A stretch of DNA of 64,000 bases from positions 1-64,000 of the forward strand of contig JAUZNX010000001.1 in NCBI GenBank assembly GCA_030706745.1, in the 5' to 3' direction. The notes under the pieces were generated by a model. The model ran no database searches. It was not told the origin of the DNA and saw only the letters and a list, made by a program, of their open reading frames with translations. This DNA is from Bacteroidota bacterium (GTDB taxonomy: Bacteria > Bacteroidota > Ignavibacteria > Palsa-1295). This document shows, piece by piece, positions 2,821 through 52,317 of the stretch. The translations under genes were made by a program, and so were the position numbers. The stretch's first letter is position 1, and each line of letters begins with the position of its first letter.

Positions 2821-5800
2821 CTACTTGCTCAGGATCATCTCCCGCGTCAGACGGATGTCGCCACTCGTCAAGACGTAGAAGTAGGTGCCGCTTGCAAGAT
2901 CGGTTGCATCCAGCGTAATGGCGTGATCGCCTAAGCTAAGCGTTCCATTGTAGATGGTCCGTACGACTGAGCCCTGAAGGTTCAGCAGAGCAATCGTTAC
3001 CTTTGCCTGTCCTGGCATCGTCACGATCACGTCGGCCTTGCCGTTCGTCGGGTTCGGATAGCTCGCACCGAGCGAGAAGCCGTTTTGCTCCGTCCGCTCC
3101 GTTACACCTGCAGAGGTGCCTTCAGCGTTCAGTGTCACTGTGCCGGAGAGCGGCGCGGGGTTCGATGTCGGGAAGGACATCTCCGCAGTTTCAGTGCCGG
3201 AAGTCGTCGGGCAGAACTGCACCATCAGAACTCCCGAACCGCCGGCTGGGATCGTTGCTGGTGTCGTCGTGCCGATTGCTGTGAAGTCCGAGCCATTTGC
3301 TCCGGACATGACTGCACCCGTACCAGGTGTCCAGGGCGTGTTGCCCGTGTTCTGGATCGTCACGGCGAACGTGTCGCACTTGGTGAGCGATGTCAGCGTG
3401 CCCTGGCCAGAGCCAGCGATCACCACACCGGCACCTGTGCCGGCAAGTGGAAGCGTCTTGGCCGTTGCCGACTTCTCGCTTGCGCTGACAATCACCGAGC
3501 CTGGCATGATGCCGATCGTGTCCGGCTTAAAGGCGACGCACAGCGTGCCTGTTCCGCCAGGGGCAATCGGACCAATGATGAATGGTGCAATCAACGAATA
3601 GGCATTGCTGGTACCCGGGCTGAGTGCGGCCGAGAAAGTCTCCGGTACATCGCCACAGTTCGTGACTGTGATGCACGTATCGTTCTCAGTATTGGCAAGC
3701 GTCATTCCGGAGAACGCCGCAGAGCCAAACGCCAGCGGCGATGGGGCTGCATCCAGACACGCTGCAAGGCCAACGCCTTCGAGCGGCAGCGACTGCGTGA
3801 GGGGACGGCCGGACGTCGTGCCGTTCAATACCAACGTTGCTGCTTCGGGGCCACGTGCCTTTGGTGTGTAGCAGACATTAACAAGCTGCGATTGCCCCGC
3901 TGAGAGCGTGATCGGCAGTGGCGGAGTCGTGCTCTCTACGAAATTATTCGAACCGGTAACCGTCGCACTCGACAGAGTCAAGTCGGTAAGACCGGAATTC
4001 TTAACCGTCACAGTAGTGCAGAGGGTACTATCGATCAAAACAGAATCCAGTACGGTGCCTGCGACCGACAGAACACCATAGGGCACACCTGTACCTGTAA
4101 CGCTGATCAGGAATTGGCTGGTGTCGCGGTTGTCCGGATAGGTCTTAACAATATTCGTGTAGAAGCGAATCGAGGCGAAGCGAGAACCTTGCTTGATCGG
4201 GACGAAGCACACGTTGACGATCTTCGATGCATCTGGCGGAAGCGTCAGATCGGACCCGGACAGCGGATAGAATTTGAAGTCGTAATCGCCATAGGTCACA
4301 ATTTGCTTGAGGATCTTGAGCGTGTCCGAGCCAGTATTGTGCAACGTCAGGGATTTACAGATTGAATCGCCAATGGCGACCGAATCGAACATGAGCGTAC
4401 CCGCTCCGTTCATCGTGGTAAGTCCCTCTTGTGGCGTGATGACGAGGTGAGCAAGAATTCCCACACCCCACATCTGCACGGTATCCGATGGAATGTTGAT
4501 CGCGTCCGTATTGATCACCAATTGCGCGTCCGGCCGTCCTTCCAGGTACGGGATGAAGCGCACCCCGATTGAATCGGCTGCACCGGCCTGCATTGGGTTG
4601 GGCGGAACATGGATCAAGGTATACATACCAGCCTGCAAGCCGATAAAATACATGCTATTGAAGTATAGCGGTACTTGTCCCTTGTTCTGCACTCCGATAT
4701 ACTGAATGGCAGTATCACCAAGGCCGCGGGCGACATGATGGAACAGCGTGTTATACGGGTAGACCGTGCTTGGGAATGTGTATTCCACAATCGGAGCAAG
4801 CCCGGTTCCATTTAGGAAGCACGACTGGGTTGCGGAATCATTACCGTCCGAAACAACTGTGAAAGTTGCGCTGCGCGCACCATTGTTGGTCGGAGCGAAC
4901 TGGAGACCGTAAGCCGCGAAGCTGCCGGCCGGAACGACTGTCCCGTTGGCGGGTCCGCTTACGATGGAAAAATCCGTTGAACCGCTTAGCGAAGCAGTCT
5001 TGATCGTCAGTGGGTTTGAACCAACACTATAAACTGTGTCGTATTGCGTAAGCGTGAAACCGGTGCCGACATTGCCGTAATTAAGCGACTTTGGCTGCAA
5101 GGATAGCTGCGCGGGTGGGAGCGGCGGGGTGAATTGCAGATCGGTTCCGGGCGTGCTCCATGTGCCGGTCGTGTAGCTCAAATACTGGAAAGAAGGCGAT
5201 GTCGTGCCATTGATTCCGATACCGGCGGAATAGCTTCCGGACATGTCATTGCTGTGGGCCTCATAGAGGAATTGAATGACGCCGGTAGCCTGATAAAATT
5301 TGACCTGCATACTACTGATACAGGACGGCGAGGTATACATGGAGCCCCAGCACGTGTGAACGCCGGTCATCTGAATCGTATACACCTGATTCGGCGAGGT
5401 CCCGGTCGTCTGTTCTAAAATTCCATAGCTCGGGCTCTGGCCGGCATTGGTGGAGTTGTCGCCCATGGCAACGTAGTTCGCGCCCCAGGGAAATAGACGC
5501 GCAGGGTATGAAGAATTAGCAAGCCCGCCATTATTATCGCCGTAGTTCGAGTTCGACCCGATGCCGATCGACGCATCCTGAATATAGATGGTCGTACCCG
5601 CACTAAACGTCGTGTTGTCGTATGTGAACTTGAACGGGAGAGATGTCGTCAGGGCACCGTAGTAATAGCGCCATACATCGGTGTAGAGCCAATTGCCTCC
5701 AGTGTTCTGGAGGTCATTCCAGCTTAAGTTCGGCGTCGTCACCGTGTATTTATTGACCCGTCCCTGCGCGGATGCGCCAGACGTGAATGCGCCCATTGCG

Positions 5801-6014: not shown

Positions 6015-6049
6015 CAAAGATAATACAATTAATTGCCGATTGTTCGAAA
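6015..6049 (-). promoter_or_regulatory. Probable Bacteroidota-type promoter
   Basis: TATCTTTG (6015-6022, minus strand) matches TAnnTTTG. The upstream element is weak (TTTCG at 6045-6049, about 22 bp away). It lies about 155 bp before the start of the 1012-residue surface protein gene. Confidence 0.45.
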
Positions 6050-6116
6050 TCGAAAAGAATTCTTCCACTAGCATTCCGTGTGCAACGCCCGGATATTATC
6101 TTATCTACTTCAAAAG

Positions 6117-6171: not shown

Positions 6172-9100
6172 CTACTCCTTTTCAATCACGAACTTACGGA
6201 CGACGGTGAAGCCGCCGATTTGAATCCGTGCGAAGTATGTCCCTTCGGCCAATGTGGCTGTTGGGATCGGAAGCGTATGATCGCCCTTCGGCATCGTGCC
6301 GTGCGCAAGCTGCGCAACTTGCTTGCCGCTCAGATCGAGCAGATCGACTGTCGCATCCGCATTCACAAGCGAAGTGAATTGCAGCGTCGCAGAGCCATCG
6401 CCAGACTTGTGGGCCGGATTCGGAATGACTTGAATATTGGTGACAGTACTCAAATTACCCTGATTCGATTTCAAGATGATCGAATCATTGCAGTTCAATT
6501 CCAACTGTACCGGTATCTGATCTCCGTTACTCAAGGCCGAGGCCGTGCATCGTGCGAAATTCACATCATTCGGATTGAACGAGGCCGGACCAATCGAAAC
6601 GGACGTCTTATCTGTATCCGGAATCGCCGCAGTCATCGAAACCGTAGCAATTACATCACCAGGATTAATCGGTGCTGTTGGTTGCATTACAAAGACAAGC
6701 GAATCATTGGAGCCGTCAACTGGCTGGCCAGATCCGTTCTTCCAATTTGAGCCAGGAGCAATACCAGCAAGAGTCAGTAAATTCGTGTTATACTTCAAGT
6801 CAATTTTGAAGTCAGTTACACCGACTGAAGATGGGATCTGACTCCCCTGCGCGGTAATAACAAAACGCTTGATGGCATTTGTCGCTGAACTATGTGGCGA
6901 GATCAACGCTCCATCCGGCGATGAAAGTGCAAGCTGCACATTATAGTGCGAACCCGTGACGTTTGTCTGAATCGGGATTGTGATCGGCGTTCCCGGGCTG
7001 CCATCTTGCTTCGTGTAGGTGATGACGACGCTCGTTGTTCCGCCGCCTGCCGCGAGATCCGGATTGAAGCTCACGACAAACTTGAGAGTCTCACCTGTAT
7101 TGACTACCTGCCCGGTCCCCGGAGGAAGCACTGTCAGGCTATAACCACCTCCAGCCGGATTTAGAGTGGCCGTGTTGAACGTCGCCGAACCACTTAATAC
7201 CGTGATCGACATGGTGTCGAGCAACACGATACAACGTAGTGTTGAGACATCGGTTTTGCCCGCGGTGTCGATTCTGAGTGCCGTTCCTGTGCTGCACGGC
7301 TGATACGGTATATTGTACGGCACCGTGAAGCTGGTATCGCCGAAGACATTGATTTGTCCGGAGATAAGTCCCGCGGTTTGTGTCGGCGTGGGTGGCGCAA
7401 AGTGCGCTGTGAAGCAGAATGTCCCGCCGGGCGGGATCATCGCTGGAAAGCTACCCGAGACTGTGAGATGAGCGGAGCTTTGGACGGCACTATCGATCTT
7501 AAGCGGAGCGCCGCAGCTCGCCGTGTTCACAATGCAGATCGTGGTATCCCAGGTACTGCCGCATGGAATCGAATCCTGCTTCTGAATCGAGGATATCGTC
7601 GCGCTTTTCTGAGCAGGGATGACATTGGCGCACCATGTAATCGTGTCATTGACACCAAATACCGGAGGCGTCGCACTGGTAATAAACAATGAGATCGTAC
7701 CACAAATTTGGCCGGTCTCGCCTGGCTGCGGCACGAAGCGAAGATGAAGTGGGATGGTAGTATCCGGCTTGAGAATATCACCCACTTGCGGACTCACCAA
7801 AATGGCTCTTCCAGAGAGGAAGTTGATTGATGCAATCTTCTCGATTGCATTACATCCGGTGTTTTGAATCGAATCCCATACATCGACAGAATCACATCCA
7901 AGCCGTATGTTGCCGAGCGTATTCGAAAATGGAGTGATTGAGGCGTTGACACTTGGGCATGCCGTGCCACTGAAAGTATACTGAACTACTGAAGAGTCAG
8001 AGCCGTGGCGGTAGGTGACTGTGACCGAGCCATTAGCTGGGTTCTGAGTAGCGCCGAACGGCCATACGACAATAATTGTGTCCTTAGCACCCGGCAGAAG
8101 AGAGTCGCCAACCACTGGATGTCGGATTACTGAATAGCCGCCGAGCGTTATGTTCTCGCTGTATCCACTAACGCGTACTCCGAAATCACAGGGATTCGCA
8201 ATCTTGATAGGGAAGAAGATCGTATCTCTGTTACATGGCGAGATACAACCGAACGGTATGTTCGTCGGACCCGCCGGCTTAAGAGTAATCGGCTGGAGAA
8301 TAGTGTATTCAATCGGCGTTCGCGACATTATTCCAGTGCCGTCGGACATCGTATCGATCCACATGATCGTATCTCGATAAGTGCCAGGCTTTGTGCTGAG
8401 TAAGTGAACCTTAAGTTTTAGGACCGATTGATGACCCGGCGGTGGTGGTGGCGGATACACCGTGTCGGGCAATTGTGGGAGATCGATCCGGAAATTGGGG
8501 TCGTTTTGATTTGCAAGCTGGATGTTTGAGATGTTTACTGGCAGGCAAGTCGTGTCAAAGTAATAGACCGCCGTATCATTGAGGGCATGCCGGACGCAAT
8601 CGAACGTATCCCGCAGAACAAAACCGCGAGTGTAAGGTGGGATGATACTTCCCGTGTCTTCGTAAGTGATGTAGAAAGTCTTATCAGGAAGACCATTTAC
8701 ATGGACCGTGATCTGCAAATTGAATGTATTCGGCTTCGTTGCCAGAGCATGAATATGGATTGCTTGCGAGCCGCCATGGCCTGGCAATAAAAGTTGCCCT
8801 GATGGAAGGGTTACCGAGAATGCACCGTCGATCTGAGGGGTCGTTATGCTCTGAATTGTAAGATCGGAACAAGTGGTATTATACAATATGAGATCAGTGT
8901 CCACCTGTTGGCACGATTTCCCATAAATGACTACGGCCTTTTGGGTCGAGAAATTGGCTGTGTACGTGGCTGGCGCACCGTTACCGATAACCTGGATAGG
9001 AGTATCGATCGTGGCCCCGTTATTCTGAATGATCAGATGGGCGATGACGGTATCGGGATTTGGTCCATTCGGTGTGTACTGAATATGGGCCTGATCCGGT

Positions 9101-18096: not shown

Positions 18097-18296
18097 GGAG
18101 GTGTTTGTTACCTCAAGAACCCTGCAATCGCACGAAAGTTACACCCTATTTGACAAAAGGCAGCCGGAGTTATCCGAGTTCGAAAGGTCGTCCTCTCTCC
18201 AGCTCGGACTCATTGACGAAGAGTAGCCCAGCGAGAGATCCTGGAAGTGCCACGGTCCGGCGCACCATCGGAGCGATTCGCCTCACCCTGGGCTAA

Positions 18297-18393
18297 GTCC
18301 ATTCGCCGCTTCGCGGCTTTGGCTGGGCGTTGTGTTGTACTCCGCAAGTCGCTACCACTCGCGAGATGTGTGGAGTGGAACTCCACACTACAC
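18297..18393 (+). repeat. About 97-bp direct repeat, copy A
   Basis: It matches 18722-18818 at roughly nine of ten positions in the same orientation. It begins GTCCATTCGCCGC and ends in a hairpin, TGTGGAGT-GGA-ACTCCACA. It looks like a non-coding dispersed repeat or MITE-like unit; no flanking target duplication was evident. Confidence 0.85.
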
Positions 18394-18452
18394 AATGCGA
18401 GAAGATTGCTTCCTTTAGCGGGACTTGCTTTTTGCGGCTTCGACACCTGACC

Positions 18453-18602
18453 TTACAGTCCAAGCGTTTTGCGGAATTCCTCATAAGAGACGCCGGGGTC
18501 GTCCGCGTTTTTGCGGATGGCTTCTTCGAGATCGAGCAGATCCTCGTAATCCTCGGCCTTCTCCTGGAGTGAGAGAAATTCGTCCTTAGGCAGAACGACC
18601 AC
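18453..18602 (-). pseudogene. Lone Phd/YefM-like antitoxin remnant
   Basis: On the minus strand the frame reads VVVLPKDEFLSLQEKAEDYED, then LLDLEEAIRKNADDPG and SYEEFRKTLGL before the stop. This is the C-terminal half typical of small Phd/YefM-type antitoxins that neutralise RelE or ParE toxins. The frame is open further up to about 18687 but has no ATG, GTG or TTG start where the DNA-binding N-terminus should be, so I take it as 5'-truncated. No toxin gene follows. It lies between the two 97-bp direct repeats. Confidence 0.45.
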
Positions 18603-18663
18603 CTCGGTGCCGTTCTCTATCCTTCTATTTTGTGCAAACGCATGGTCTATCTCCTCTATCGTA

Positions 18664-18683
18664 CCGTGGGTTGAAACCCACGG
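18664..18683. repeat. CCGTGGGTTGAAACCCACGG palindromic repeat
   Basis: A near-perfect inverted repeat (CCGTGGGTT / AACCCACGG) is followed by a second small hairpin, GCTCCTAACGGAGC (18697-18710). Such hairpins are a common intergenic repeat type in many bacterial phyla. Here it replaces the expected 5' end of the antitoxin gene. Confidence 0.7.
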
Positions 18684-18721
18684 CTACAACTATTTCGCTC
18701 CTAACGGAGCTACAAAGCTAT

Positions 18722-18818
18722 GTCCATTCGCCGCTTCGCGGCTTTGGGTTGGCGTTTTGTGGTACTCCGCAGGTCGCTACCACTCGTGGAATGTGAGGAG
18801 TGGAACTCCACACTACAT
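18722..18818 (+). repeat. About 97-bp direct repeat, copy B
   Basis: This is the second copy of the element at 18297-18393, ending in GGAGTGGAACTCCACACTACA. It finishes 12 bases beyond the stop codon of the DUF4921 gene. Confidence 0.85.
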
Positions 18819-21304: not shown

Positions 21305-21985
21305 TTAGAGATCCTTTAACAGATCCGGTCTTCGATCTTTGGTTCTTCGCATCGCTTCGGCTTCGCGGTAATCGGCGATCTTCGCGTGATCGCCATTCAG
21401 GAGAATATCAGGCACGCGCATGCCTTCGAATTCTGATGGGCGAGTGTAGATCGGTCCTTCGAGCAGGCCGTTTTGGAATGAGTCCATCATGGCGCTTTCG
21501 GAATCGTGGATTGCGCCGGGAATGAGTCGCACGACGGCATCGATCAGCACGCAGGCCGGAAGCTCACCGCCGGTCAGCACATAATCACCGATGGTGATCT
21601 CGCGAGTAATCCACTTTTCGCGGACCCGTTCATCAACCCCTTTATAATGGCCGCAGAGGATGAGGAGATTGTTCTTCATCGAGAGTTCATTGGCAAGCGG
21701 CTGCGTGAGCTGCTCGCCATCAGGCGACATGAAAATGCGTTCGTCGTAATCTCGTTCGGAGGTGAGCCGGCGAAAGAGAGCAAAGAGCGGCTCGGGCTTC
21801 AGGACCATCCCGGCTCCGCCGCCAAACGGCTCGTCATCAATCTGGTGGTACTTGCCGAGACCATACTCGCGAAGATCGTGCGCAACAATCTCGATAATTC
21901 CCTTCTCCCGCGCACGCTTGATGATGCTCTCGGAGAGCGGACTCTCGAGAAGTTTTGGAACGGCAGAGATGATGTCGATGCGCAT
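21305..21985 (-). CDS. trmD: tRNA (guanine-37-N1)-methyltransferase
   Basis: TrmD methylates G37 next to the anticodon with S-adenosylmethionine and prevents frameshifting. The 226 residues from MRIDIISAVPKLL carry the trefoil-knot AdoMet site (LILCGHYKGVDERV, IGDYVLTGGELPACVLIDAVVRLIPG) and the linker SFQNGLLEGPIYTRPSEFEG. The ATG at 21985 is chosen because homologues begin MRIDI. The gene is not in the usual rpsP-rimM-trmD-rplS context. It directly follows a DUF433-DUF5615 pair, and a second, truncated copy of its first 26 codons lies upstream at 22626-22710. Confidence 0.95.
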   Translation of the reverse strand: MRIDIISAVPKLLESPLSESIIKRAREKGIIEIVAHDLREYGLGKYHQIDDEPFGGGAGMVLKPEPLFALFRRLTSERDYDERIFMSPDGEQLTQPLANELSMKNNLLILCGHYKGVDERVREKWITREITIGDYVLTGGELPACVLIDAVVRLIPGAIHDSESAMMDSFQNGLLEGPIYTRPSEFEGMRVPDILLNGDHAKIADYREAEAMRRTKDRRPDLLKDL

Positions 21986-21993
21986 GTTCTGGT

Positions 21994-22326
21994 TTAGCCA
22001 AGCTCCAAGCACGATGCCAGAAGATCCTGCCCAAAGTCAATAATATCAGCCGCATGATTGCGAAGAATATTCTCGATGATGGCAGTGGGCTGATTTCCAC
22101 ACCGAAGCCAAATTACCTTTGGCGGAGGACCAAAGAGTGCGGCCATGTCCGCGAAGTCCGAATCTTGAGAGACGATAACGAAACCATGGTCCTTAGCATA
22201 ATGCCAAATTTCGCGGTCGCTCGATTGATCGAAGCCAAGGCGCCGGACCTGATCGGACGCTGGGAATAGCTCAGCCAGTTGCCGGCAGAGTTTAAAACTG
22301 AGATTTTGATCGAAGAGCAGCTTCAT
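21994..22326 (-). CDS. DUF5615 PIN-like protein (probable toxin)
   Basis: This 110-residue protein begins MKLLFDQNLSFKLCRQL, and has VSQDSDFADMAALFGPPPKVIWLRCGN: the acidic residues D6, D55 and D57 in the DxN and SxDxDF motifs that define the DUF5615 PIN-like nuclease family. It is encoded 29 bases after a DUF433 gene, the standard partner and presumed antitoxin. The stop lies 8 bases before the trmD start, so the TA pair and trmD may be co-transcribed. RNase activity is inferred from the fold. Confidence 0.85.
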   Translation of the reverse strand: MKLLFDQNLSFKLCRQLAELFPASDQVRRLGFDQSSDREIWHYAKDHGFVIVSQDSDFADMAALFGPPPKVIWLRCGNQPTAIIENILRNHAADIIDFGQDLLASCLELG

Positions 22327-22355: not shown

Positions 22356-22577
22356 CTAGGCCACAGTCATAACATGCCGTTCCCGATCGGCGGCATAGGC
22401 CAGCGATGCTCGGATATCTTCTTCTGTGAGCTCAGGATAATCGCTCAGAATATCGGCATGCGACATACCGGCTGCGAGCCACCCGAGCACATCGGCCACA
22501 GCGATCCGCATACCGCGAATGCACGGACGTCCGCCTCGCTTCCCTGGTTCGATTGTAACAAGCTTGTGGTAGTCCAT
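22356..22577 (-). CDS. DUF433 protein (probable antitoxin)
   Basis: This 73-residue protein shows the compact DUF433 pattern: PGKRGGRPCIRGMRIAVADVLGWLAAGMSHADILSDYPELTEEDIRASLAYAAD. This is a small winged-helix-like DNA-binding protein usually found with DUF5615. It is the upstream member of the pair, consistent with an autoregulating antitoxin. Confidence 0.87.
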   Translation of the reverse strand: MDYHKLVTIEPGKRGGRPCIRGMRIAVADVLGWLAAGMSHADILSDYPELTEEDIRASLAYAADRERHVMTVA

Positions 22578-22625: not shown

Positions 22626-22710
22626 GCCTTACCCGCGCGCGCTTGACGATGCTCTCCGAGAGCGGACTCTCCAACAGCTTCGGAACGGCGGAGATGATGT
22701 CGATGCGCAT
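22626..22710 (-). pseudogene. Truncated, diverged duplicate of the trmD 5' end
   Basis: An ATG at 22708-22710 opens MRIDIISAVPKLLESPLSE, then SIVKRAR, identical to the intact TrmD start except one I/V change. A one-base loss then shifts the frame to a quick stop. The DNA differs from 21905-21985 at about one base in eight, almost always at synonymous sites. So this is a homologue that evolved under selection, not a fresh copy. Confidence 0.88.
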
Positions 22711-22720
22711 GGGACAATCC

Positions 22721-22948
22721 TCAGCGCTTACTGGCGTGCAGGATCGTTAGCCCGATGAGTGTCTCGTCGCGATAACGAAGAATGATGTCATCTTCCGTCA
22801 GCTCGGTATCCGTCGCGCGACTCGGTTTCTCGAAGTTGACGTATAGCACGTCGGCCTCTTCGTCGTAGGAGGTCCAAAAGAAGCCACCCGGCGCGTGGAG
22901 AACCGCAGGCATAAGTCGCAGGAAATCTTGAACATCGGCTAAGGCCAT
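22721..22948 (-). CDS. DUF2283 protein (antitoxin-like)
   Basis: This 75-residue protein has the DUF2283 signature SYDEEADVLYVNFEKPSRATDTELTEDDIILRYRDETLIGLTILHA. DUF2283 proteins often sit next to small nuclease-like toxins. Here the upstream overlapping frame (22939-23106) is a toxin-like gene with its middle missing. Downstream it ends 10 bases before the truncated trmD copy, suggesting it was once directly upstream of trmD. Confidence 0.85.
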   Translation of the reverse strand: MALADVQDFLRLMPAVLHAPGGFFWTSYDEEADVLYVNFEKPSRATDTELTEDDIILRYRDETLIGLTILHASKR

Positions 22949-23106
22949 AGCTGAACCCTCCTCTTCAATGGGCTTTCTCTTGTTGTCAAGAATGCGGTTA
23001 TCACAAAACCGTCCAAATCTAATTCACGATAAACTGTGATGTGCGCCCAGCGCTCGTCCGTCAGACGAATGCGCTTGCCGTGCTTCGAAGTCGCTTCCAG
23101 CGTCAT
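22939..23106 (-). pseudogene. Internally deleted toxin-like gene (PBECR-type), partner of DUF2283
   Basis: The 55-codon frame reads MTLEATSKHGKRIRLTDERW then AHITVYRELDLDGFVITAFLTTR. The first half matches the start, and YRELDLDGFVITAFL the end, of small nuclease-like proteins paired with DUF2283. In complete members about 40 residues separate the two halves. The join at HIT/VYRE looks like an in-frame internal deletion. Its last codons overlap the DUF2283 start. Family assignment rests on memory of similar proteins and is tentative. Confidence 0.55.
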
Positions 23107-23280: not shown

Positions 23281-23763
23281 CTGCCCCCCCCCCCCCCGTT
23301 CTATTTCTTGCTTGATAATCGTTTTGAGGCACCGCATTCCACGCGTGAAGATAGTCTGGACCGTCTTGGTCTTCATGCCAAGCACTTCAGCGACCTCCCA
23401 GAGCGGATATCCATCTATGATCTTGCTGACCATGATCTTCCGTGTCCGTTCGGGTAATTTTGAAAGCGCCCATTCCACAATTTCCCGTGCCTCGTCAATT
23501 GCTTCATCGCCGGGCGCGGCTACATCATAACCATCCGGCATCAAGGACTCGCGTGACGAATGAGCATGGTTGCGATAGAGACAACGCAAGCCAGTGCTTC
23601 GAAGCCACTGAAGCTGCGAAGCTTTGGAAAGATCGGACGGCATGCAGGCAAGCGATTGGGTTATCGCTTCGCTCACAGCATCTTCGATATCCTCGAACCG
23701 CGTTTTGGGGAACCCGTGATGAAGCGTTAGGGTCAACCGGGATCGACCTCTGTCAGAGTCCAT
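23164..23763 (-). CDS. ECF-type RNA polymerase sigma factor with a G14 tract near its 3' end
   Basis: Residues about 10-65 fit sigma region 2 loosely (DIEDAVSEAITQSLACMPS, LQWLRSTGLRCLYRNH). Residues about 100-148 are a good region 4 helix-turn-helix: LSKLPERTRKIMVSKIIDGYPLWEVAEVLGMKTKTVQTIFTRGMRCLK. After EIERGGGG, encoded by the 14-G run, the frame goes on for about 40 residues that look random (QIESRSSILAST...). With 13 G the protein would stop at once; with 15 G it would run into the T9SS tail fragment. The natural end is therefore probably at or near the G run. It is divergent from the secreted protein gene at 23933. Confidence 0.7.
   Translation of the reverse strand: MDSDRGRSRLTLTLHHGFPKTRFEDIEDAVSEAITQSLACMPSDLSKASQLQWLRSTGLRCLYRNHAHSSRESLMPDGYDVAAPGDEAIDEAREIVEWALSKLPERTRKIMVSKIIDGYPLWEVAEVLGMKTKTVQTIFTRGMRCLKTIIKQEIERGGGGQIESRSSILASTALRSIAARCHRACIATASKPAQPARRG
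23284..23297. repeat. Poly-C/G tract of 14 bases
   Basis: Fourteen consecutive C on the plus strand (G in the sigma-factor sense). It sits at the exact junction between the sigma-factor coding region and the T9SS tail fragment. Confidence 0.95.
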
Positions 23764-48799: not shown

Positions 48800-49498
48800 A
48801 TGAGTAGACAGAAAGATTTGAAGCCCGATGAGATTAAGCGGCTATTCCGCTCTAAAGGCTATGACTATTATTATCAACTGCAGAAGCCCGAAGAGGCGGA
48901 CTTCATTTTTATCGGCCTCGATGCGAACCGACCTCCCTACTCGAAGTTCGGCTTAGTCGAATCCGAGCGGGCATTCCTCAAAGACGGTAAGAAATGGTGC
49001 ATGAATAACGGAATACTCCACCCAATTCTTACAAGGGATCCTGATAATCCAATTCCGGGCGATACAGCTGCTCTGAAATATTGGAAGCATGCGCTCGCTG
49101 TGATCGGGCCGTTGAAAAACGCCTCGCGTTGCTCGATGGTCGAACTTCTTCGATGGCCCACTTTCGGGGCATGCGGCTTCTGTGTTTCCAGTTTGCTAAG
49201 ACCCACCAACCGAAAATATCTAGCCTGGCTCGCAGATTTCATTTCAGAATCAAAGCAAAAGAAGTTCTTCATGTCCCCTTCGGTGATTGGTATGCTCAAT
49301 CACACTGAACTGAAGACCATTGTGGCTAAGGTTTTCCCGAGGAGAGAAGTGGTTATGGATGCCGCGAAGCGTCGGCCTCACCGAATCGGAAAGTCTAACA
49401 TTCACGTTATAGGGCACTTCTCAGCGAGAGATTCGAAAGATAGAATTAGTAAGACAGTCTCTCACGTTCAAGAAGTATTTCGTAAATATCCGAAATAA
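48800..49498 (+). CDS. Unrecognised protein, possibly of uracil-DNA-glycosylase-like fold
   Basis: The protein has 232 residues from MSRQKDLKPDEIKRLF. EADFIFIGLDANRPPYS (about 33-50) resembles motif 1 of the UDG superfamily, and FFMSPSVIGML (about 155) could correspond to the second motif region, but the match is weak. RCSMVELLRWPTFGACGF lies between. Its stop overlaps the start of the ankyrin gene by one base (TAATG), implying co-transcription. The function is unproven. Confidence 0.6.
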   Translation: MSRQKDLKPDEIKRLFRSKGYDYYYQLQKPEEADFIFIGLDANRPPYSKFGLVESERAFLKDGKKWCMNNGILHPILTRDPDNPIPGDTAALKYWKHALAVIGPLKNASRCSMVELLRWPTFGACGFCVSSLLRPTNRKYLAWLADFISESKQKKFFMSPSVIGMLNHTELKTIVAKVFPRREVVMDAAKRRPHRIGKSNIHVIGHFSARDSKDRISKTVSHVQEVFRKYPK

Positions 49499-50568
49499 TG
49501 CTCAAGCGTTTCTTTGAATTGCCTTCACTCGAGCATTCTCTGCCCTTTGCGTACATGTTGGCTTCTTTCGCGATAGGGATTATGTCCCTGATCGCTTACC
49601 CATGCTTCTCACAGCATGGCAAGGTACCCCCGCCACCAAAACCCGGGATGACAATTCCGGATCCACTTGACGTCTGTCACGATAGCGTGGAAAGAATCGC
49701 GACTTTGCTCCGTCGGTTTCCCCAACTCGCAAAGGAGGGCTCTCCTCTCATGGAGGTCCTTTCTTGCGAAGAAATGGCATCTAACTCTAATGAGCCATAT
49801 TCAATGGATTCCGCCCGCAAATACCAAATCGTAGAGCTACTTCTCAAATACGGCGCCGAACCAAACTATGCCCTTGGTCAGTGCCGGGACTCTGCAATAG
49901 CAGAATTGTTGATTAGGAACGGGGCCAAAGTTGATGAGGAATATGGGCGCGAACTAAAATCCACACTAACTGAAGAGCTTGAGTACTTAGCAAACCCTGC
50001 TGGAAGCTTACGTGGAAAACTCGTTAAAGGAACAGGACACACTGTACTTTTTGAAGTGTCTAGCGATTGGCCGGGCTGGTCTGGCGGTTCAAGGGGTTCT
50101 CCATGGAGCTTCGATGCTGCGACATCCGACTCGATTACTGGTCGAAGACTCGGCTTTATGACGGTTCTTCTGACTCATGGAGCAAAACCAAACGCGAACA
50201 ATGCTTCTATGCTCATAAATCTAATTCGGAATATTAGCGCGAGATGGGAAAATGATGAAGCGAGTTATCAAGGCGATACTATTCACCTGCTGTGCTTAAA
50301 TCTTGTTAAGATTCTTGTTGAAGCTGGGGCTGAGGTTAACATCAGTTATCATGATGTTACACCCTTGTTAGCGGCTGTTGAAAGTCACTGGCCCGCAGCA
50401 GTTGATTACTAATTATCCAGAAATGCCAATGTTAACTTCAAGGATCGGAATCGTGATCCGATTCTTTATCATGCCTTGGAGGCCAAACGTGCGGACGAAG
50501 GAATCCGGCAGAATTTGGACGATGAAATCATCAGTATTCTGCGGCTGCATGGCGCTCTTGAGAAATAA
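49498..50568 (+). pseudogene. Ankyrin-repeat membrane protein gene with an in-frame premature stop
   Basis: The N-terminus has a hydrophobic segment (FAYMLASFAIGIMSLIAYPCF). Ankyrin-type units follow: IVELLLKYGAEPNYAL, IAELLIRNGAKVDEEY, FMTVLLTHGAKPNANN, LVKILVEAGAEVNISYHDVTPLLAA. TAA at 50410-50412 interrupts the last-but-one repeat (...AAVDY-stop). The same frame then continues perfectly: LSRNANVNFKDRNRDPILYH ... ISILRLHGALEK to a TAA at 50568. A TTA to TAA change would explain it. Read as is, a 304-residue protein is made. Ankyrins bind proteins; no partner is evident. Confidence 0.8.
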
Positions 50569-50581
50569 ATAAGGCGAGTAG

Positions 50582-50646
50582 CTCACCCCATCTGCTGCCT
50601 CTTATGGAAGTACCGAGCCCGCCCCGGCGGGCGCGGTCGAAGGGCG
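50582..50646 (-). repeat. Diverged fragment of the DUF58 gene 3' end
   Basis: It matches 51329-51390: the ends CCCCATCTGCTGCC and GCGGTCGAAGGGCG are identical, with a diverged middle that includes a GC palindrome. On the minus strand it ends YFHKRQQMG-stop against YLHKRQQMG-stop of the intact gene, with synonymous differences. It lies on the far side of the MazF module. Confidence 0.8.
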
Positions 50647-50685
50647 AGAACCCAATCCTTGCGCGCGCTCGTTACGGTACATCGT

Positions 50686-51036
50686 ATGAAGAAGGTGTAT
50701 CGCCAGAAGCCTGTACCAGTGCAAGCGCCGAAGAAACATCGCGCGCGGGCAGCGCGTGCCGTGAAACCTAAGCGAATAGGTCCCATCGAGAACGGATCAC
50801 ATCCAGCGACTCTCGGTGTCATCCCGCCGTTCGTACCGGTCTGGCAGATCAGCGAGCAAGAACGAGAAAAAATCCGCAAGGAACTCGTCTCCGGACTCAA
50901 GGAGATGAACGACCTTTATCTGGAGGAATCAAAAGCTTGGCACCCTCTCGAAGAAGAAGTGTATGAAAAGTCGATTCGAAACGCTCGGCCGAGGAGACAT
51001 CATCCGAGTCGTCCTCGATCCCGTAAAAGGGCATGA
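50686..51036 (+). CDS. Probable antitoxin of the MazF-type module
   Basis: The protein has 116 residues from MKKVYRQKPVPVQ. The N-terminus is highly basic (KKHRARAARAVKPKR), the middle hydrophobic-Pro, and the C-terminal half acidic-helical (ISEQEREKIRKELVSGLKEMNDLYLEESKAW), a plausible toxin-binding segment. The last 74 bases overlap the toxin gene in another frame. It does not look like standard MazE, so the antitoxin role rests on position. Confidence 0.6.
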   Translation: MKKVYRQKPVPVQAPKKHRARAARAVKPKRIGPIENGSHPATLGVIPPFVPVWQISEQEREKIRKELVSGLKEMNDLYLEESKAWHPLEEEVYEKSIRNARPRRHHPSRPRSRKRA

Positions 51037-51328
51037 ACAGTCGGGCATTCGTCCTGCGGTTGTTCTCTCGCCTCTGCTGATTAACGAGTTCTCCAGTACG
51101 ATCTTAGTTGCTGCCATTACCAGCAAACGGCTGGATCGCATTCTATCCGTTGAAGTCCTTATCGAAGCGCCGGAGGGCGGTCTAAAGTCGGATTCCAAAG
51201 TGCTTCTTCTTCAAACTCGTTCGATTGATAAGAGCCGGATCGTCGGCGTTTACGGCTCGCTGTCTCAAGAAACGATGAACCGAGTCGATCAAGCTCTTGC
51301 TATTGCGACTGGTCTGATGAAGCTATAG
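50963..51328 (+). CDS. MazF/PemK-type endoribonuclease toxin
   Basis: This 121-residue protein has the family plan RGDIIRVVLDPVKGHEQSGIRPAVVLSPLLIN, ILVAAITSK and VLLLQTRSIDKSRI. MazF toxins cut mRNA at short sequences. The GD, RP and T(S/R) positions are in place, so it is likely functional. Its TAG lies directly against the stop codon of the convergent DUF58 gene, with no spacer. Confidence 0.9.
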   Translation: MKSRFETLGRGDIIRVVLDPVKGHEQSGIRPAVVLSPLLINEFSSTILVAAITSKRLDRILSVEVLIEAPEGGLKSDSKVLLLQTRSIDKSRIVGVYGSLSQETMNRVDQALAIATGLMKL

Positions 51329-52234
51329 CTACCCCATCTGCTGCCGCTTGTGCAGGTATTCCAGCAGCGCGCGGTCGAAGGGCGTGGTGGTTTCGAGCAG
51401 GAGGTAGTCGATGCCTTCCGAGAGGAGGGAGTCCTTCAGGTTCGTGAGATATTCGCTCACCGATTTCTGGTAGCTTGCCTGCAATTGGTAGGGCTGCGTG
51501 CGGATTTCCTGGCCGGTCTCGACATCCACAATCGTCGCGTCGGCGCTGTGGAGTTCTAGCGTCAACTCTGCGGGATCGAGCACCTGAAAGGCGATGACTT
51601 CATGACCCGCATGTTGCATGAGGCTGAGCGGCAACTTGATCTCATCCGGATCGTCTAAGAAATCGCTAATGACAATGACCAGTCCACGACGCGTGAGTCG
51701 CTCGGCGACACGGCGAAGAGCGGACTGCGTGCGGGTTGCGTGCGAGGGCTCAGTGGTCTGTAGTTTACGCAGCATCTCGCGCAAATAACTTTGCTTGAGC
51801 CGCGCAGGCATGAATACGCGCAATTCCTCATCGAACAAACCCAGCCCGACCGCATCCTGTTGTCGAACGAGAAGATACGCAAGCGCGGCGGCGAGCATTG
51901 TCGCATATTTGTATTTTGTGATGCGTCTGGGATCGCTCGTGTAGTTCATCGAGCGCGACGCATCGACAATAATGTGCGCTTTAAGATTAGTCTCTTCTTC
52001 GAACTGCTTGATGTAATGCCGGTCCGTGCGGCCAAAGAGCTTCCAGTCGATATTCCGAATTGCATCGCCGGGCAAATACGGACGGTGTTCGGCAAACTCA
52101 ACGGAAAATCCGTGATACGGTGATTTGTGCAACCCTGTGATGAAGCCCTCGACAACAAATCGAGCAACAAGCTCCATCGAACCAAGACCGCTCGCGATCT
52201 CGGGACGAAGGTAGTCGGTAAGGTCTTCAGCCAT
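51329..52234 (-). CDS. DUF58 domain (MoxR-associated, vWA-like) protein
   Basis: This 301-residue protein has the DUF58 core GFSVEFAEHRPYLPGDAIRNIDWKLFGRTDRHYIKQFEEETN, followed by a vWA-like part: IIVDASRSMNY (a MIDAS-type DxSxS), VIVISDFLDDPDEI. Such proteins work with MoxR AAA ATPases in cofactor or complex assembly; none is adjacent. The last residues ALLEYLHKRQQMG recur in the fragment at 50582. It is downstream of hisC, separated by a palindrome pair. Confidence 0.9.
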   Translation of the reverse strand: MAEDLTDYLRPEIASGLGSMELVARFVVEGFITGLHKSPYHGFSVEFAEHRPYLPGDAIRNIDWKLFGRTDRHYIKQFEEETNLKAHIIVDASRSMNYTSDPRRITKYKYATMLAAALAYLLVRQQDAVGLGLFDEELRVFMPARLKQSYLREMLRKLQTTEPSHATRTQSALRRVAERLTRRGLVIVISDFLDDPDEIKLPLSLMQHAGHEVIAFQVLDPAELTLELHSADATIVDVETGQEIRTQPYQLQASYQKSVSEYLTNLKDSLLSEGIDYLLLETTTPFDRALLEYLHKRQQMG

Positions 52235-52253: not shown

Positions 52254-52317
52254 GGGGTTAATGGCATTAACCCGTTTCTGTCATCGTACTCGCCAGTGGG
52301 TTAATGCCATTAACCCC
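52254..52317. repeat. 20-bp inverted repeat forming the end of hisC
   Basis: GGGGTTAATGGCATTAACCC (52254-52273) and GGGTTAATGCCATTAACCCC (52298-52317) are exact reverse complements around 24 bases. The hisC stop lies in the left arm, and the right arm encodes NGINPL of its C-terminus. A role as terminator is possible. Confidence 0.85.

Follow-up and report, generated by a model that had tools for sequence, protein, structure and literature searches.

How chromosomal toxin–antitoxin (TA) modules spread when no mobile element can be recognised has long been an open question, and the closest described counterpart concerns another kind of cargo. Restriction-modification (RM) units reportedly insert with target duplications that are long and variable, on the order of ~100 bp, as set out in passages of two papers (PMC3874152 and PMC3031569) that both cite Nobusato 2000 and Furuta 2010. 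Laboratory precedents exist for homology-facilitated illegitimate recombination (PMC3240628) and for partial duplications made by transformation (PMC3784515). The TA-mobility passages of a 2013 review do not describe for TA modules the layout presented below, and no report of such an insertion for TA modules was found in the literature searched, from which subscription papers were mostly absent. A third point of comparison is the integrative element that restores the end of the gene it enters, with an intact gene on one side and a displaced partial gene end on the other. The fourth is the chromosomal integron, or superintegron, whose arrays TA modules are thought to stabilise; the reduction of genome loss by TA loci is reportedly the subject of a study by Szekeres et al. 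from 2007, cited in PMC2654758.

The window analysed here, a stretch of 64,000 nucleotides, opens contig C1 of a 3.81-Mb draft genome (coded G000), which was compared with relatives labelled as Ignavibacteria or Bacteroidota metagenome-assembled genomes, mostly multi-contig drafts. At its DUF58 gene, the following features are arranged around a MazF/PemK module:

51329–52234, minus strand: intact DUF58 gene, 301 aa (PF01882, E 4.3e-51)
51329–51384, minus strand: 3' end of DUF58, reference copy of the direct repeat
50583–50646 (64 nt), minus strand: incomplete, diverged copy of the 3' end of DUF58, including a TGA stop (direct repeat and alignment with orthologous gene ends)
50617–50632 (16 nt), no strand: perfect 7+7 palindrome GCCCGCCCCGGCGGGC within the DUF58 fragment (pattern search and alignment)
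50686–51036, plus strand: probable MazF antitoxin ORF, 116 aa from ATG (ORF and position)
50963–51328, plus strand: MazF/PemK toxin gene, 121 aa (PF02452, E 2.5e-27)
50686–51328, plus strand: whole MazF/PemK module, between the DUF58 stop and the DUF58-end copy

The two genes are convergent, and the stop codons of mazF (51328) and DUF58 (51329) abut, with a copy of the DUF58 end on the far side of the module, exactly as a preliminary description of this DNA had reported. The last ~56 nt of DUF58 are found again on the same strand as a 28-nt block of 86% identity and a block identical at 16 of 16 nt, with an 8-nt gap; a 20-mer across the second block has two matches with at most three mismatches in the window, where 0.01 is expected. 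Protein likeness to DUF58 is limited in the fragment to the last ~11 codons. The palindrome GCCCGCCCCGGCGGGC, with an expectation of 0.04 within one mismatch in the pattern search, belongs to a type of insertion that is common to all three DUF58 fragments of a congeneric genome, G003, and, by alignment, absent from every intact DUF58 gene of the genus. The differences between gene and fragment, earlier described as synonymous, are so in part, and are accompanied by the palindrome and by non-synonymous changes such as L to F; the G000 fragment looks decayed. The module itself fits a type II TA system, with a toxin of PemK/MazF fold and a small upstream ORF that overlaps the mazF start at 50963. 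This ORF has no Pfam match and, from its position, is the probable antitoxin of MazF. In the surroundings of the locus, a 20-nt perfect inverted repeat (GGGGTTAATGGCATTAACCC) lies within 52254–52317, between DUF58 and a hisC-like gene, and is perhaps a terminator or operator. An ankyrin-repeat gene at 49498–50569 has an in-frame TAA at ~50410, after which the frame stays open to 50569, and may be a recent pseudogene.

A second TA module in the window stands between the gene trmD and a partial copy of it:

21305–21985, minus strand: intact trmD, reading up to an ATG at 21985, with orthologues in G001–G008
21907–21986, minus strand: first 79 nt of trmD, reference copy of the second direct repeat
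21994–22326, minus strand: DUF5615 (PIN-like) toxin-type gene (PF18480, E 9.3e-34)
22356–22577, minus strand: DUF433 antitoxin-type gene (PF04255, E 3.5e-26)
22632–22711, minus strand: partial copy of the trmD 5' end, direct repeat, identical to the trmD of G001 at 77 of 78 positions

The repeat of ~80 nt has 89% identity between its two copies (22632–22711 and 21907–21986) and encloses the DUF433/DUF5615 pair. The layout that the preliminary description had equated with that at DUF58 is thus the same in having a TA module between gene and partial copy, and differs in the part copied, which is the 5' and not the 3' end. No TA module accompanied by a fragment of the trmD 5' end was found in G001–G006, so that among G000–G006 the trmD cassette is present in G000 only. 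Past the trmD fragment, at 22721–23106, a DUF2283 gene (PF10049) and a small DUF4258-like ORF without a Pfam hit are possibly a second TA-type pair; downstream of them lies an apparent C-terminal tail of a secreted protein, with a poly-C run near 23286. A third repeat pair lies close behind a galT-like gene:

18292–18392, no strand: third flanking repeat, copy 1 (101-nt direct repeat, 90%)
18717–18817, no strand: third flanking repeat, copy 2 (101-nt direct repeat, 90%)

Reading of the sequence between these copies reveals a degraded remnant of a Phd-like antitoxin (~18450–18640, minus strand); no toxin gene was seen within 18292–18817, and the pair perhaps marks a dying cassette.

To see whether the layout recurs, genes for PIN (PF01850) and PemK toxins were taken from congeneric genomes and direct repeats were sought between the two 1.5-kb flanks of each, in tests that rest on sampled genome stretches of about 1.2 Mb. 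Flanking, locus-specific direct repeats scoring at least 45 accompany 31 of the 67 PIN/PemK toxin genes of the genus, a count in which two L102 toxin genes use one repeat pair, the repeats of L105 are paralogous TA starts and loci of the same array are not independent. The distribution of scores is gapped, passing from 47 directly to 30; in the inverted-orientation control none of the 67 genes reaches a score of 40, which is reached at 48 of 721 random positions (overlapping windows, away from these toxins). Control genes of 240–1000 nt are repeat-flanked in 35 of 346 cases, or 23 distinct events, against the 31 of 67 for toxins (Fisher p = 5e-11). TA-type genes were recognised by ORF reading among these 23 events (HigBA, DUF5615 twice, DUF4258 twice and an MNT nucleotidyltransferase), the remainder being repeats inside genes, tandem paralogues and simple repeats; since several control events are themselves of TA type, the contrast is, if anything, understated. 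The same layout was seen for RelE-, HigBA- and DUF5615/DUF433-type genes. Beyond the genus, ~11 of 60 PIN loci in the class are repeat-flanked, as are 8 of the 29 PemK loci sampled across the phylum, some of which may belong to integron-type arrays. Two loci of other Bacteroidota, L351 and L354, carry PemK between ~100-nt repeats that are alike across both genomes (GTCCGCGTCCGA), possibly in integron-type arrays that would be distinct from the layout described here.

Nearly half of the toxin genes in two families bear an apparent footprint of arrival, and there is strong support for a recurrent process that sets TA modules next to the end of a gene and a partial copy of that end; the phenomenon of TA cassettes with duplicated gene ends is, as a whole, well supported. 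Trivial similarity or artefact, whether by chance, dispersed repeats, paralogous TA genes or misassembly, does account for the paralogous starts at L105, and a few repeats hold terminator-like hairpins in what are mostly multi-contig drafts. As a general explanation it is refuted by the inverted control, by repeats that are mostly unique in the sample and by the recurrence of the layout across several genomes and families; the gap between scores of 47 and 30 speaks against it as well, and it keeps hardly any probability. Chance similarity is ruled out by the 20-mer expectation and the inverted control, and a dispersed repeat family is ruled out for most loci, as most repeats are not found again in the sequence sampled from their genome. 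Hairpin formation is unsupported as a general feature of the repeats, with z below -2 in 7 of 35.

In cassettes with a single TA pair, the inner unit measures 324–769 bp (mean 678) and the flanking repeats 27–176 nt (mean 83), with no correlation between repeat length and inner length of the kind a constraint on cassette size might give (r = -0.12). The unit is filled by the TA genes, no recombinase or integrase gene was seen in the cassettes read, which hold TA-type ORFs only, and the TA proteins tested gave no match to PADLOC defence-system models. The repeats lie at the ends of accC, xth, an MDR-type dehydrogenase gene, ruvX, rluB, a DUF948-like gene, DUF58, trmD and others, about a dozen in all, with gene names other than DUF58 assigned by reading the sequences. 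Of the 10 cases that involve a gene 3' end, 7 have the border of the repeat no more than 5 nt from the stop codon, against 0.7 expected from an even spread over the repeat length.

These properties allow a direct comparison with the known systems. As far as the passages cited above describe them, RM insertions share a small addictive unit, the lack of a transposase, site-derived direct repeats of ~100 bp and tandem stacking through the repeats; they differ in cargo, which here is TA (PemK, PIN, RelE-like, DUF5615/DUF433) and not restriction-modification, and in two properties of the repeats, whose copies here differ chiefly at synonymous sites, which makes many of them alleles, and whose border lies at a stop codon. 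By analogy, TA cassettes may work like RM long-target-duplication insertions, with cargo, stop-codon junctions and allelic differences setting them apart. Integrative elements that restore a gene end resemble the cassettes in having an intact gene on one side and a displaced partial end on the other, whereas the cassettes are below 800 bp, contain no integrase and are bordered by repeats of 27–176 nt with diverged copies.

Chromosomal integron arrays likewise consist of small TA cassettes with repeats between them. A site-specific recombinase acting in trans, of tyrosine-recombinase or integron type, might find its attachment sites in the gene ends or the repeats: integrases commonly target gene ends, the arrays described below look like cassette arrays, and relatives of tyrosine recombinases occur in 7 of 7 genomes. 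The integron integrase (TIGR02249), however, is above its curated cut-off in none of the 7, the repeats consist of host gene ends, vary from locus to locus and lack an attC-like fold as a group (mean z -0.5), and no recombinase gene was seen in the cassettes read. An integron/attC system is on these grounds ruled out in this genus, and a trans-acting recombinase in general is very improbable.

The differences between the two copies of a gene end carry information on where the second copy came from. Across 11 genes, gene end and fragment differ at 16, 10 and 56 sites in codon positions 1, 2 and 3, and 58 of these differences are synonymous against 24 non-synonymous (71% synonymous). One explanation is a long target duplication, in which a TA unit inserts, 30–180 nt are duplicated on the spot and the copies then diverge, so that only insertions at gene ends keep the gene usable. 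Decay of the orphan copy after duplication on the spot should spread differences across all codon positions. In simulations where the duplication took place in situ and selection then acted on the gene but not on the fragment (three settings of 400 runs each), ~40% of differences were synonymous (sd 5%), and the observed bias was reached in 0 of 1,200 runs. The synonymous bias and these simulations argue that many copies are alleles and not decayed duplicates, and, as judged from the sequences, it appears safe to conclude that in many cases the two copies are alleles that stem from different lineages. A synonymous bias could also result from later recombinational replacement of the intact gene end.

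Individual loci point in both directions. The trmD fragment is nearer to the trmD of G001 than to the gene beside it, although the general difference between G000 and G001 is ~16% and intact-trmD windows are 75–92% identical; together with repeat borders that are clustered at stop codons and not spread, this speaks against duplication in place. In G003, the two copies of accC, of xth and of DUF948 are each other's closest relatives, nearer to one another than to any relative, as local duplication would also give; the decayed DUF58 fragment of G000 and repeat lengths of the same order as in the RM systems (in the passages of PMC3874152 and PMC3031569) fit a long target duplication too. We regard that explanation as possible, though unlikely. 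A constant assignment of fragment and intact copy to foreign and native roles was rejected: a comparison with sister sequences over four genes gave 25:18 informative sites (p 0.36), with no consistently foreign or native copy. For three other genes, the neighbours past the cassette are syntenic in cassette-free relatives, beginning for example 3 nt after the dehydrogenase stop in G003; the intervals differ in length between relatives, so that among the three genes compared a clean empty site was not seen.

Cassettes are also found in arrays and at more than one site. One PIN pair is present in G002 (L085), G003 (L100) and G000 (L068) at 73–81% identity, with homology ending at the TA unit and with different flanking repeats; L068 and L100 share in addition an adjacent DUF5615-type gene and a similar repeat and may therefore be related arrays. 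The DUF58 site of G003 (L036) is an array of three toxin genes, PemK, PIN and RelE-like, with a DUF58-end copy behind each of them:

7172–7229: DUF58-end copy in G003, direct repeat
6022–6080: DUF58-end copy in G003, direct repeat
5322–5381: DUF58-end copy in G003, direct repeat

Since all G003 and G000 DUF58 fragments carry the palindrome-type insertion, they go back to one ancestral fragment and not to four separate captures. The MazF unit is common to G000 and G003 (~79% DNA identity) and absent from G001 (the sister of G000 in the tree), G002, G004 and G005; G006 has a diverged MazF and no visible DUF58 fragment. The region past the DUF58 stop (L034–L039) is a hot spot of variable genes, with a different cargo in each of G000–G006.

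These observations qualify what the preliminary description had proposed, a repeated capture mechanism at gene ends resting on two independent cases. The enrichment of partial duplicates beside TA genes that it anticipated is present, as the comparison of toxins with control genes attests. Its two sites in the window stand as independent cases, although the fragments of the G003 DUF58 array share a single origin; the gene ends stand for about a dozen genes, DUF58 and trmD included, with other repeats being intergenic; and the repetition stands in the contrast with controls and in the arrays, whereas capture as the mechanism goes further than the data. Spread among relatives might instead rely chiefly on unequal crossing-over and ordinary homologous recombination at already occupied loci, the first insertion at each gene end having been a rare event. 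The single origin of the G000 and G003 fragments, the MazF unit that these two genomes share and sister genome G001 lacks, and the homology between the L068 and L100 arrays are in keeping with such spread; it leaves the many different target genes and the first insertions unexplained, the trmD cassette, found among G000–G006 in G000 only, also counts against it, and we consider it improbable as the main process. The present data separate only partly between target duplication in situ, recombination with incoming alleles and later unequal crossing-over.

We tentatively favour, at a little under an even chance, the view that TA cassettes enter by recombining with homologous gene ends, encode no recombinase of their own and are guarded by addiction against repeat-mediated loss. 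Incoming DNA in which a TA pair is joined to an allele of a gene end would recombine with the matching resident gene end, possibly in natural transformation, where one join would be homologous and the other illegitimate, or alternatively as a circle integrating by a single crossover. The outcome would be an intact gene whose end is repeated on the far side of the TA pair, and no recombinase would need to be encoded by the cassette. The laboratory events cited above (PMC3240628 and PMC3784515) resemble this entry in that incoming DNA is joined by homology at one end and partial duplications are bordered by repeats; they differ in being laboratory observations in other bacteria, without TA specificity. 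A ComEC-type competence gene is present, which gives weak support because the family is widespread.

Retention of the cassettes by addiction seems plausible because repeat-flanked cargo would otherwise be readily lost through recombination: flanking repeats would ease the deletion of any insert, and addiction would penalise deletion, so that TA cargo would stay and other cargo be lost. Later unequal crossing-over between repeats could pile cassettes into arrays. A more comprehensive picture, with TA cassettes that need no recombinase and are addressed to a locus by their gene-end allele, enter by homology, stack into arrays, are protected by a toxin penalty on deletion and spread between related species, is conceivable, with the chances rather against it.

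In this group of uncultured bacteria, the layout suggests that TA pairs travel as very small cassettes, by recombination at the ends of genes, and that an inserted pair is not easily lost again; it also offers a testable reason why TA and RM are the cargo found between long direct repeats, in that other cargo would be deleted and addictive cargo would not. The units are small enough to be counted, dated by the divergence of their repeats and rebuilt in a transformable laboratory strain. Elsewhere in the window, at the contig end, positions 1–939 and 3347–4282 are directly duplicated (76–92%) and are apparently two paralogous copies of a long gene.
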